Below are positions 28,039 through 30,551 of a stretch of 64,000 nt of DNA, one piece after another (position 1 is the first letter of the stretch; the number at the start of each line of letters is the position of its first letter). Source of the DNA: an uncultured Pelagibacteraceae bacterium. GTDB lineage: Bacteria > Pseudomonadota > Alphaproteobacteria > Pelagibacterales > Pelagibacteraceae. The notes beneath the pieces are model-generated. The model was not told where the DNA came from, made no database searches, and saw only the letters and a list, made by a program, of their open reading frames with translations. The DNA is taken from positions 124,001-188,000 of the forward strand of contig CACHCL010000001.1 of NCBI GenBank assembly GCA_902578315.1, read 5' to 3'. A program made the translations under genes and the position numbers.

Positions 28039-28068
28039 TTGACAAAATCCTGAATTTCTTGCTATAAA
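28039..28068 (+). promoter_or_regulatory. Sigma-70 type promoter for metY leader
   Basis: TTGACA at 28039-28044, an 18-base spacer and TATAAA at 28063-28068. Transcription would start near 28075, just at the first base of the SAM-II aptamer. The match to the consensus is 11 of 12. Confidence 0.75.
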
Positions 28069-28073
28069 TCTAA

Positions 28074-28125
28074 TAGCGCTGAGTTAAGGCAACTTGCGGG
28101 CGCTCTATAAATCCTGCTAAAGCGC
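28074..28125 (+). promoter_or_regulatory. SAM-II riboswitch aptamer
   Basis: The order AGCGCTGA, TTAA, TTGC, GCGCT, ATAAAT, GCTAAA follows the SAM-II consensus. Stem P1 is AGCGC (28075-28079) with GCGCT (28100-28104). The 3' strand (28113-28124) supplies the pseudoknot partner. SAM-II riboswitches of alphaproteobacteria lie upstream of methionine genes, here metY. The last nine bases (28116-28124) also serve as antiterminator for the hairpin that follows, which implies transcriptional OFF control when SAM is bound. Confidence 0.88.
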
Positions 28126-28138
28126 ATAAGTCATTTAG

Positions 28139-28168
28139 ACCACCGCTTTAGCCGGTGGTTTTTTTTTG
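28139..28168 (+). terminator. Riboswitch-controlled intrinsic terminator
   Basis: Stem ACCACCG (28139-28145) with CGGTGGT (28153-28159), then a run of T to 28168. Bases 28144-28152 (CGCTTTAGC) are perfectly complementary to 28116-28124 (GCTAAAGCG) in the aptamer, giving mutually exclusive terminator and antiterminator folds. Confidence 0.88.
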
Positions 28169-28185
28169 GAAAAATCTGAAATTAA

Positions 28186-28241
28186 ACCGGGTATTTGAAC
28201 CATATTGTACACCTGGCATATGCCGAAGTACTAAAAAGGAG
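28186..28241 (+). promoter_or_regulatory. SAM-V riboswitch aptamer
   Basis: An H-type pseudoknot can be drawn with P1 GGTAT (28190-28194) pairing ATGCC (28220-28224) and P2 GTAC (28207-28210) pairing GTAC (28228-28231). It is followed by TAAAAAGGAG, which includes a ribosome binding site at 28237-28241. This arrangement and the ACTAAAAAGG end match SAM-V, a class first described from Pelagibacter upstream of metY. Ligand binding would hide the ribosome binding site, so the control is translational. Confidence 0.85.
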
Positions 28242-28301
28242 AAGATGAACAGAATTAAACTTCGTTCATTCTTCTCCAGAAAGACGGAGAAAAAATGAAC
28301 G
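28238..28301 (+). promoter_or_regulatory. Competing-stem element with two ribosome-site/start modules
   Basis: Module A, GGAGAAGATGAAC (28238-28250), and module B, GGAGAAAAAATGAACG (28286-28301), are near repeats, each joining a ribosome binding site to an ATG. Between them CGTTCATTCTTCTCC (28263-28277) is complementary to both, with one bulge in each case. The middle strand can therefore mask either start but not both at once. Confidence 0.65.
28245..28298 (+). CDS. Leader mini-ORF 1 under SAM-V control
   Basis: A 17-codon frame, product MNRIKLRSFFSRKTEKK, from ATG at 28245. Its ribosome binding site AGGAG (28237-28241) is the 3' end of the SAM-V aptamer, with a short 3-base spacing. The stop TGA (28296-28298) overlaps the ATG of mini-ORF 2 as ATGA. 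The basic peptide has no recognised function. Its main role may be to carry ribosomes through the downstream hairpins to metY. Confidence 0.55.
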   Translation: MNRIKLRSFFSRKTEKK

Positions 28302-28342
28302 AAACGATAAGAGAAACAGTAAGGGGGAAAATCAATGACTGA
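28295..28342 (+). CDS. Leader mini-ORF 2 overlapping the metY start
   Basis: A 15-codon frame, product MNETIRETVRGKIND, from ATG at 28295 with GGAG at 28286-28289 and 5-base spacing. Its stop TGA (28340-28342) lies just past the metY ATG (28335), so terminating ribosomes would be placed within 8 bases of the metY start. The layout suggests a re-initiation relay from the SAM-V site to metY. Confidence 0.5.
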   Translation: MNETIRETVRGKIND

Positions 28343-29627
28343 TTTTAAACATCCGGAAACTATTGGCTTACATGGTAGTGATTATAGAGCTGATCCTACT
28401 ACAACAGCTGTAGCAGTTCCTATTTATCAAACAACTTCTTACCAATTTAAAAATGCAGAACATGCTGCAAATTTATTTGGTCTAAAAGAGTTTGGTAATA
28501 TTTACACACGTATCATGAACCCAACGGTTGATGTGCTAGAAAAAAGAGTTGCAGCGCTTGAAGGCGGTGTAGCAGCATGCGCAGTGGGATCAGGTCAAGC
28601 AGCTTCGGCAATGTGTATTCAAAACTTAGCACAAGCAGGAGATAACATAGTTGCTTCGACTGATTTATACGGTGGTACAGTTAACTTATTCAAAAATACT
28701 TTAAGGCAACAAGGTATTGAAGTTAGATTTGCAGATCCTGCGGATCCAAAAAACTTCGAAAAAGTGACTGATGATAAAACAAGAGCTTACTACGGTGAGA
28801 CTCTTCCAAATCCTTATCTTCGTGTTTTTCCAATAAAAGAAGTTTCAGATATTGGTAGAAAAAAAGGTATACCTTTAATTATCGATAACACAGCTTCACC
28901 AGTTATATGTAAACCTTTAGCTCATGGAGCTGCAATTGTAATGCACTCTTTGACAAAATATATTGGTGGTCATGGTACTTCAATTGGAGGAATAATTGTT
29001 GATGGAGGAAATTTTGATTGGATTAAAGATAGAAAAAGACAACCTCTATTAAATGAACCTGATCAAAGTTATCACGGCGCCGTTTGGGCTGACGCAGTTC
29101 CACAATTAACTGGAGCTAATATCCCATTTGTAATCCGAGCTAGAGTGGTTTTATTGAGAGACCTAGGTGCTCCTTTAAGTCCTTTCAATGCTTTCCAAAT
29201 CATTCAAGGTTTGGAAACTGTAGCGCTAAGAATGAAACAACATTGCAGTAATGCAGAGAAAGTTGTGAATTTCTTAGATGGTCACAAAAAAGTTAAAAAA
29301 GTTATCTATCCAACTAATTATCAAGGTGAAATAAGGGATAGAGCTAAAAAATATATGCAAGGTGGGTACGGATCTTTAATAGGTATGGATCTTGGAACTA
29401 AAGAAGCAGGAGCTAAGTTCATTGACAACTTAAAAATGCTTTACCATGTAGCAAATATTGGTGATGCTAGAAGTTTAGCAATTCACCCAGCAACAACAAC
29501 ACATAGTCAGCTTACAGAGAAAGAAATGTTAGCTGCTGGTGTCACACCAGGTTATGTCAGATTATCGATCGGCATTGAACATCCAGACGATATTGTTGCG
29601 GATATCAAGCAAGCTTTAGCTGCTTAA
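28335..29627 (+). CDS. metY: O-acetylhomoserine (thiol)-lyase
   Basis: 430 residues, a PLP enzyme of the Cys/Met metabolism family. Visible are the N-terminal HPETIGLHGSDYRADPTTTAVAVPIYQTTSYQF, GGVAACAVGSGQAA and the PLP-lysine segment IVMHSLTKYIGGHGTSIGG. The long length (about 430) and the AVWADAVPQLTGA region fit MetY rather than MetB/MetC. It converts O-acetylhomoserine and sulfide to homocysteine. Its own ribosome site AGGGGG (28322-28327) is 7 bases from the ATG. Expression should be repressed by SAM through the upstream tandem riboswitches. Confidence 0.93.
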   Translation: MTDFKHPETIGLHGSDYRADPTTTAVAVPIYQTTSYQFKNAEHAANLFGLKEFGNIYTRIMNPTVDVLEKRVAALEGGVAACAVGSGQAASAMCIQNLAQAGDNIVASTDLYGGTVNLFKNTLRQQGIEVRFADPADPKNFEKVTDDKTRAYYGETLPNPYLRVFPIKEVSDIGRKKGIPLIIDNTASPVICKPLAHGAAIVMHSLTKYIGGHGTSIGGIIVDGGNFDWIKDRKRQPLLNEPDQSYHGAVWADAVPQLTGANIPFVIRARVVLLRDLGAPLSPFNAFQIIQGLETVALRMKQHCSNAEKVVNFLDGHKKVKKVIYPTNYQGEIRDRAKKYMQGGYGSLIGMDLGTKEAGAKFIDNLKMLYHVANIGDARSLAIHPATTTHSQLTEKEMLAAGVTPGYVRLSIGIEHPDDIVADIKQALAA

Positions 29628-29681: not shown

Positions 29682-30089
29682 TTACCTTCTATTATAAATT
29701 ATTGATTTTTTTGCTATCTTTTCAATTTTAGATATTTCTTTAATTTTATTTTTTTGAAATTCTCTCACAATATCTGTAGTTTTTTCTATCATAGCAGTAC
29801 TTTTCAACTTAATTTGTTTTTTTGCAATTGTACAAAATTCAGACCTTGTTATTTCAAAAGAGGAAATACAAGTTTCTTGTTTTCTCTCAGGATTTTTTTT
29901 CTCTGCGTATGCGATAGCATGTTCGAGAGGAGTTTTTCCTGTTTGTTTTTTAACTCCATAACTTATCGCCGAGTTTAAACTGGATTGAACAAATCTTCCA
30001 TTCGAGGCACCTGGACCTAATAATGCTAACGATTCAGCACAACCGTTCAGCAAAAAAAGAGTTGATAATAAAAGTAACATTTTTTTCAT
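29682..30089 (-). CDS. Small lipoprotein, paralogue A
   Basis: 135 residues. A lipoprotein signal with lipobox LLNGC (Cys17) is followed by AESLALLGPGASNGRFVQSSLNSAISYGVKKQTGKTPLEHAIAYAEKKNPERK, then a basic helical C-terminal third. Residues 1-75 align with the next gene upstream (30228), so the two are tandem duplicates. Two cysteines (TCISS and FCTIAKK) are conserved between the copies. Function is unknown; the anchor would be the inner or outer membrane. Confidence 0.7.
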   Translation of the reverse strand: MKKMLLLLSTLFLLNGCAESLALLGPGASNGRFVQSSLNSAISYGVKKQTGKTPLEHAIAYAEKKNPERKQETCISSFEITRSEFCTIAKKQIKLKSTAMIEKTTDIVREFQKNKIKEISKIEKIAKKSIIYNRR

Positions 30090-30227: not shown

Positions 30228-30551
30228 CTAATCGAGCAGCTTTATTTTTGATTTTGTCAAAATTAATTGTTTTTTTACAATATAACAAATCTCAGAGTTA
30301 GTTTTTTCTAGAAAAGAGTGGCATGGCTCTTTTTTTTTCTCAGGATTTACTTTTTCAGCATAGGCCTTGACATGCTCTAATGGACCTTTGCCAGTTTGTT
30401 TTTTAACTCCATAACTAACCACAGTATTGAAAGATGATTGAAGCATTTTACCATTTGTTGCTCCGCCAATTGAGGGCCCAAGAAGGGCGACGGACTCGGC
30501 GCAACCATAAAGTAAAAAAAATGTTGTTAATAAAACAAATATTTTTCTCAT
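30228..30551 (-). CDS. Small lipoprotein, paralogue B
   Basis: 107 residues with lipobox LLYGC (Cys17), then AESVALLGPSIGGATNGKMLQSSFNTVVSYGVKKQTGKGPLEHVKAYAEKVNPEKKKEPC. It is clearly related to the 29682 lipoprotein but lacks the 30-residue C-terminal extension and has a 3-residue insertion. A 138-base gap with no recognised feature separates the copies. Function is unknown. Confidence 0.7.
   Translation of the reverse strand: MRKIFVLLTTFFLLYGCAESVALLGPSIGGATNGKMLQSSFNTVVSYGVKKQTGKGPLEHVKAYAEKVNPEKKKEPCHSFLEKTNSEICYIVKKQLILTKSKIKLLD

Follow-up and report, generated by a model that had tools for sequence, protein, structure and literature searches.

The metY leader of an uncultured Pelagibacteraceae bacterium carries, behind a SAM-V riboswitch aptamer, three RNA strands (A, B and C) that can form two mutually exclusive pairings, A:B and B:C, one of which hides the Shine-Dalgarno (SD) sequence of a short open reading frame. 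This frame, named mini-ORF 2, has its own SD, is conserved and has its stop codon over the start of metY, as in a coupler upstream ORF. On balance, we favour the view that the leader combines a SAM-V riboswitch with a translational platform of three strands and a coupler ORF. The parts of the leader, their conservation, the exclusive pairings and the co-occurrence of mini-ORF 2 with a hairpin at the metY start were all computed here.

Organization of the metY leader

The window, by which we mean the whole stretch of 64,000 nt that was analysed, covers positions 124,001 to 188,000 of the forward strand of contig CACHCL010000001.1 (GCA_902578315.1). Genes upstream of the metY leader encode a protein of the glutamate-cysteine ligase family (PF04107) and a glutathione synthase (NF003573, above cut-off). 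Gene names other than metY, gshA and gshB are those which we presume from sequence motifs and from papers. The features of the leader are as follows.

28066–28140, + strand: degenerate SAM-II-like (SAM_alpha) element (Rfam RF00521, 18.1 bits, E 0.086; below the gathering score of 36)
28137–28168, + strand: intrinsic terminator (terminator scan; sites 28137–28161)
28180–28244, + strand: SAM-V riboswitch aptamer (Rfam RF01826, 72 bits; gathering score 41)
28238–28250, + strand: strand A, the SAM-V SD GGAG (28238–28241) plus AAGATGAAC; pairs with B
28245–28298, + strand: mini-ORF 1, 17 codons, MNRIKLRSFFSRKTEKK; 3 nt from GGAG to ATG; kept in 44 of 69 loci
28261–28277, + strand: strand B, the anti-SD middle strand; alternative partner of A or C
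28286–28304, + strand: strand C, the SD and start of mini-ORF 2; pairs with B
28295–28342, + strand: mini-ORF 2, 15 codons, MNETIRETVRGKIND; GGAG (28286–28289) 5 nt before the ATG
28328–28346, + strand: hairpin AAAATCA-ATGAC-TGATTTT, with the metY ATG in the loop and the mini-ORF 2 TGA opening the 3' arm
28335–29627, + strand: metY, O-acetylhomoserine sulfhydrylase (TIGR01326, 574.8 bits, cut-off 495.1; PF01053)

The initial annotation had placed the SAM-V SD, both mini-ORFs, their overlaps and metY at these positions, and all of these coordinates hold by the sequence and by Rfam. The stop codon of mini-ORF 1 overlaps the start codon of mini-ORF 2 as ATGA, and the last base of the mini-ORF 2 stop is the eighth base of metY. 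Strand B extends over 28264–28277 for the A:B pairing and over 28261–28277 for the longer B:C pairing. The SAM-V SD is situated 48 nt before the SD of mini-ORF 2 and about 90 nt before metY, which has an SD of its own (AAGGGGG, 28321–28327), as had been recognised earlier. According to the available sections of Meyer 2009 (PMC2704228), a start codon typically lies within 10 nt of the SAM-V motif, a feature that is usual and not defining. In the window only mini-ORF 1 satisfies this distance. The ATG of metY lies about 90 nt on, and the earlier reading that the SAM-V SD does not serve the gene directly is supported.

Upstream of the aptamer, the terminator segment CGCTTTAGC (28144–28152) is complementary to GCTAAAGCG (28116–28124), and this pairing is a possible antiterminator. 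A similar module consisting of GCTAAAGC, GCTTTAG and a T-run precedes SAM-V in 130 of the 133 loci of the genus, and the tandem of a SAM-II-like element and SAM-V at metY seems to be the rule there. As for the features of a tandem leader, the terminator between the two elements is present in the window, with the SAM-II part reaching 18.1 bits against the gathering score of 36. Elsewhere in the window, two adjacent and similar small ORFs on the minus strand (29682–30089 and 30228–30551), both with a signal-like start and GCAES, are perhaps tandem lipoprotein copies.

Direct and long forms of the SAM-V leader

SAM-V was found in 131 of 169 genomes of the genus and in 253 of 397 sampled genomes of the family, 249 of them above the cut-off. 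The 229 loci studied comprise 133 that represent all the listed matches in the 131 positive genomes of the genus, and 96 from other genera, which are a subset of the matches picked by score, genus and multiple hits; one locus (L204) was left out. In 130 loci the ATG of the gene follows soon after the SAM-V SD (the direct form, including L222, a metY leader with ambiguous bases that was counted by eye), 98 loci are of the long form and one (L055) is an orphan. Long leaders precede metY (69 loci), bhmT (26) and metE-like genes (3). The one bhmT protein that was scanned belongs to the homocysteine S-methyltransferase family (PF02574), and methionine synthase profiles matched the metE-like protein below their cut-offs. 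At L055, SAM-V and the A:B hairpin are followed by no recognised methionine gene start, and the locus looks like an orphan or a remnant.

One genome (G192) is taken to be that of HTCC1062, as its SAM-V elements are placed in accordance with the intergenic regions given in the available sections of Meyer 2009 (PMC2704228). Its metY and mmuM leaders are direct and its bhmT leader (L051) is long. The same genome has a fourth, weaker SAM-V (L195, 57.6 bits) directly upstream of a gene starting MSNNLKETISNLQK, which is taken to be osmC.

The A:B pattern of the window was present in 57 stretches of named genomes, probably mostly the same genomes as in the surveyed set and therefore not independent of it, and every record is Pelagibacteraceae or Pelagibacter, which places the window in SAR11. 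All 57 have a SAM-V core upstream and the ATG-to-TGATTT overlap motif downstream; the strict metY motif follows in 56 and the remaining one (L309) reads ETIALHG. Viral contigs gave eight loose matches to the A:B pattern, none of which lies behind a SAM-V core in this motif-based search. Among the genus genomes without a SAM-V match, many of them incomplete, metY was absent in 35 of 38 at E 1e-100 (the other three are L266–268).

Two alternative pairings of strand B

Strand A of the long forms consists of the SAM-V SD and roughly 8–14 further nt. In the window, A:B comprises 13 base pairs with one bulge and B:C comprises 16 base pairs. The complementarity of the middle strand to both mini-ORF starts, which the initial annotation had pointed out, is conserved among relatives. 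In an alignment of 56 of the 57 unique metY leaders (L008 was too different to be included), the 13 pairs of A:B are standard in 727 of 728 cells (99.9%; slid controls 33–61%) and the 16 pairs of B:C in 97.7% of cells (slid controls 44–60%). Similarly, 99.2% of cells are paired in both A:B and B:C in an alignment of 15 of the 23 unique bhmT leaders, drawn from the genus only. Substitutions per column in the metY family, counted by parsimony on the metY tree, amount to 0.31 in A, 0.86 in B and 1.37 in C as compared to 3.50 in the A-B loop and 4.67 in the B-C spacer, so that the A and B arms carry 4–11 times fewer changes than the loop between them. A standard pair was preserved by 10 of the 11 changes in the A:B arms. 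All three strands are kept in L197 and L202, two leaders that lack a start codon up to 16 nt from the SD of A (SD-A).

Co-variation of the two modules with the middle strand, which the initial annotation had named as a point to check by alignment, was absent within families: changes on both sides of a pair were found zero times in A:B and once in B:C in the metY leaders, no better than shuffles, and zero times in either pairing in the bhmT leaders. Such double changes are expected to be rare within a family because B must fit two partners. Between families, represented by nine leaders, the A:B partners differ and yet match, and none of 20000 random A-B pairings was as good. Conservation together with this permutation led us to reject chance complementarity for A:B; for B:C the permutation result is weaker (0.022). 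When 15 leaders were taken singly, the native A was the top partner of B in nine and the native C in only two; in this comparison the placing of the C window was poor in L187, L197 and L202.

Masking of the mini-ORF 2 SD and the SAM-V linker

Blocking the GGAG of strand A lowered the median unpaired chance of the SD in strand C (SD-C) from 0.44 to 0.00 in the 57 unique metY leaders, from 0.22 to 0.00 in the 23 bhmT leaders and from 0.09 to 0.00 in the metE-like leaders. For the window (L001), the sequence between the two SDs was shuffled 60 times with A blocked, and no shuffle masked SD-C to the degree seen with the native sequence; the median fraction of equally good shuffles was 0.000 in metY and in bhmT leaders. 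The difference between the free and the blocked state rises above shuffles only weakly (median fractions of 0.083 for metY, 0.267 for bhmT and 0.267 for metE-like leaders). In the g3/g6 bhmT leaders L184 and L187–189, SD-C is still 0.26–0.63 unpaired with A blocked, and in L051 (SD-C 0.09 unpaired) a quarter of the shuffles masked it equally well as the native sequence. At equilibrium, folding gives no advantage to the ON state, B:C being at least as good as A:B. Since SD-C is only partly open at equilibrium, the ON state must rest on co-transcriptional order, with A:B forming before B:C, as the 5'-to-3' order makes possible.

SAM binding by SAM-V was reportedly described by Poiata in 2009. 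In aptamers with a TGAAC core, the linker of the long loci reads CC (94 of 94) and that of the direct loci CT (101 of 101). This CC faces GG in 92 long loci; of the direct loci, 60 have AG opposite the CT and 24 have GG. In this register 19 of 195 rows are misanchored (2 long, 17 direct). CC is otherwise seen, among direct leaders, in 16 bhmT leaders with a TTAAC core and in one metY leader (L216). SAM-bound SAM-V is proposed to form a helix P2a with the start of the SD (Huang and Lilley, available sections of PMC6061858). By our reading, the linker CC corresponds to nt 14–15 of this P2a, and the GG of strand A would face it as P2a. Because the linker CC faces GG, SAM binding would, in most long forms, take the very G's of A that are needed by B. 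It is this anatomy, with the linker CC opposite the GG needed by B, which suggests that the ligand could shift the balance between the two pairings.

Mini-ORF 2 and the metY start hairpin

The stop of mini-ORF 2 overlaps metY in all 69 long metY loci, and its ATG lies at position −40 in 67 of them and at −37 in two. A mini-ORF of the same type with its own GGAGG was found in 17 of 17 junctions between bhmT and metY (17 read of 18 loci of the genus; the junction set had 19 pieces, and metY was not obtained from two of them, L243 of the bhmT type and L246 of the metE-like type). A TGA at positions +5 to +7 of metY is present in 69 of 69 long loci and in 17 of 17 metY starts behind bhmT, whereas direct loci have it in 1 of 42 cases in the genus and in 6 of 63 in other genera. 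The start hairpin AAAATCA-ATGNN-TGATTTT, with at least six of seven pairs, follows the same distribution, being present in 68 of 69 long loci and all 17 starts behind bhmT (85 of 86) and, among direct loci, in one of the 42 from the genus and none of the 63 from other genera. L008 keeps the TGA overlapping metY, with the start hairpin absent. Codon 2 of metY varies, and its third base is T in 86 of 86 of these loci against 28 of 42 direct loci of the genus. The hairpin suggests that expression of metY depends on translation of mini-ORF 2.

Codon tests covering 67 of the 69 loci gave more synonymous changes in mini-ORF 2 than expected, namely 37 against 26.4 in codons 3–11 (P 0.008) and 41 against 31.2 in codons 2–15 (P 0.027). 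In codons 2–15 there are 86 non-synonymous changes for these 41 synonymous ones, compared with 50 for 565 in codons 12–100 of metY. Constraint on the peptide thus appears weak, and mini-ORF 2 is a probable coupler to metY.

In the metY tree, which was built from at most 360 nt and rooted at the midpoint because the outgroup of other genera was not monophyletic, the metY genes with a long leader or behind bhmT form one clade (86 of 86, support 0.973). A leader left over from a deleted bhmT was considered, as MMSTNRETIREKKNG of L008 resembles g4 bhmT starts. The other 85 (68 long, 17 behind bhmT) form a clade that excludes L008, where no bhmT is present, and this position opposes the idea without settling it.

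Mini-ORF 1

Conservation of the mini-ORF 1 frame had been set beforehand as a test of the initial annotation, and the frame did not pass it. Seventeen codons with the ATGA overlap are found in 44 of the 69 long metY loci; five copies have an early stop and the others are frame-shifted, have lost the overlap or are fused to mini-ORF 2. The codon test, which covered the 44 intact copies out of 69 loci, gave no synonymous excess (11 against 15.5 expected, P 0.95). Nor are nonsense changes depleted (6 events against 4.07 expected, one of which, in L108, makes no real stop because of a second change beside it). The retention in 44 of 69 loci and the lack of coding constraint led us to reject mini-ORF 1 as the main relay in metY leaders; the bhmT and g3/g6 leaders are the reason for treating it as an alternative below. 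As an ORF it is probably non-functional and is best read as a by-product of strand A mimicking strand C; A probably resembles the start of mini-ORF 2 because both must pair with B. From the earlier proposal that SAM sensing is relayed over about 90 bases by two mini-ORFs, a relay through one mini-ORF probably stands, and passage through two is not supported.

The bhmT leaders of the genus (L017, L027, L030 and 15 more) have an ORF starting from SD-A, which is 20–21 codons long in 17 of 18, e.g. MKSLEPLKRFHLSPVNWREHE. In four bhmT leaders from other SAR11 genera (L184, L187, L188 and L189) the loop between A and B is far longer, and a frame of 44–48 codons, which could be a real leader ORF, is open from SD-A to about the bhmT start; the peptides of L187 and L189 resemble each other. 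In the bhmT leader of L176, a TTG frame from strand A enters bhmT in frame and free of stops.

Proposed mechanism and alternative explanations

In the mechanism that we propose, strand A would pair with B, when SAM is absent, as soon as B is transcribed. Strand C would then be free and ribosomes could initiate mini-ORF 2. After passing the 5' arm of the hairpin at the metY start, these ribosomes would terminate at the TGA within the hairpin, and metY would be initiated from its freed SD and ATG or through reinitiation. When SAM is present, P2a of the aptamer would take two G's of A and B would turn to C, so that mini-ORF 2 would not be started, the metY hairpin would stay closed and metY would be OFF. 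Capture of A by SAM, the direction of switching, the kinetic order and the translation and coupling of mini-ORF 2 are what we infer from the sequence. BhmT is up under sulfur limitation (available sections of PMC5069961), and together with the long bhmT leader of G192 (L051) this rise is in line with an OFF switch.

Mini-ORF 1 could alternatively be the working part: SAM-V would control start A, a ribosome on mini-ORF 1 would strip B off C, and C would fire by coupling, A:B being merely a hairpin opened by ribosomes. The ORF from A does extend across B in 64 of 69 metY leaders. All 18 bhmT leaders of the genus show the same, with the ORF ending at bhmT +4/+8 in 17 of them; it ends in an ATGA overlap in two metE-like leaders and reaches 44–48 codons in L184 and L187–189. 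A frame of this type may indeed have a role, in bhmT leaders above all. However, the gap from SD to ATG is just 3 nt, 17 codons with the overlap persist in 44 of 69 metY loci with a random share of synonymous changes (P 0.95), nonsense events number 6 for 4.07 expected with a real early stop at five tips, the frame of L175 ends after 8 codons, and L197 and L202 keep A, B and C in the absence of any start codon up to 16 nt from SD-A. We consider such a relay unlikely.

It is also improbable, in our view, that the A:B hairpin merely silences a leftover SAM-V SD, with C and metY being constitutive or under SAM-II termination alone. A:B is the best supported pairing, a SAM-II-like element with a terminator lies upstream and folding gives no clear ON/OFF contrast above shuffles, all of which would fit mere silencing. 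Yet SD-C is masked beyond most shuffles when A is blocked in most metY, bhmT and metE-like leaders, B:C is kept in 97.7% of cells, and the aptamer and the CC linker are retained in the long forms. That mini-ORF 2 encodes a working small peptide, its overlap with metY being ordinary operon packing, we regard as very improbable; a similar peptide does occur in two gene contexts (e.g. MKKETTRETVRGKING and MNETIRETVRGKING) and there is weak amino-acid constraint (P 0.008), but 86 non-synonymous changes stand against 41 synonymous ones in codons 2–15 and the strong conservation falls on the start, the stop and the hairpin.

Returning to the three-strand platform with a coupler ORF, a wider reading, to which we give an even chance, is that SAR11 has made a working SD into a switch strand. 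An anti-SD and a second SD would have been placed behind SAM-V, and the old SD would now act as an antisequestor decoy captured by SAM. Such an SD-mimic platform, with differing sequences, would be present at bhmT, metY and metE-like genes in several SAR11 genera; in the metY lineage it would drive the 15-codon coupler, which also occurs at the riboswitch-free junction of bhmT and metY.

Comparison with known systems

Translational riboswitches of the sequestor/antisequestor type, such as the thiM TPP riboswitch, use an anti-SD and an anti-anti-SD. The leader described here differs from thiM-type platforms in that the anti-anti-SD strand is itself an SD and is used as such in the direct form. 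The direct SAM-V of metY in Ca. Pelagibacter ubique (Huang and Lilley 2018, available sections of PMC6061858) belongs to the same aptamer class and likewise carries an SD at the 3' end of the aptamer. That SD is assumed to act for the gene itself, whereas in the window it lies 48 nt before the mini-ORF SD and about 90 nt before metY.

The tandem bhmT leader (PMC11508383, PMC9481103) shares with the window the order SAM-II, terminator and SAM-V. In the available sections of both papers SAM-V is described as acting directly on the ribosome site of the gene, with no B or C strands described, and the antisense oligos of PMC11508383 extend to position 147, within SAM-V. In G192, which fits HTCC1062, the bhmT leader is long (L051), and direct action as drawn cannot hold for bhmT, as about 70 nt separate the SAM-V SD from the start of the gene. 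SAM-II/SAM-V tandems are thus already known. B and C strands or a mini-ORF behind SAM-V are apparently undescribed, as far as a literature search covering mostly less than the full texts could tell. From the long platform it can be seen how a riboswitch might retain control when the start of its gene moves away, and the occurrence of one aptamer in both direct and relay forms within a single genus offers a natural comparison of how RNA switching and translational coupling combine in very small genomes.

Relays from a riboswitch to a small ORF are likewise known, and the view in the initial annotation that the arrangement has no described counterpart has to be given up for the relay. In the B12 riboswitch-uPPE2-ppe2 leader of M. 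tuberculosis (available sections of PMC11260477), the riboswitch controls a small ORF that is coupled to the gene by overlap, for which its authors use the term relay; it differs from the window in its B12 aptamer, its AUGA overlap and a ppe2 without an SD, and no start hairpin or SD mimic is described in those sections. The Mbox of M. tuberculosis pe20 (available sections of PMC12810186) resembles our leader in having a translational platform that controls a conserved uORF, Rv1805A, and differs from it in sensing Mg2+ and in acting with Rho-dependent termination.
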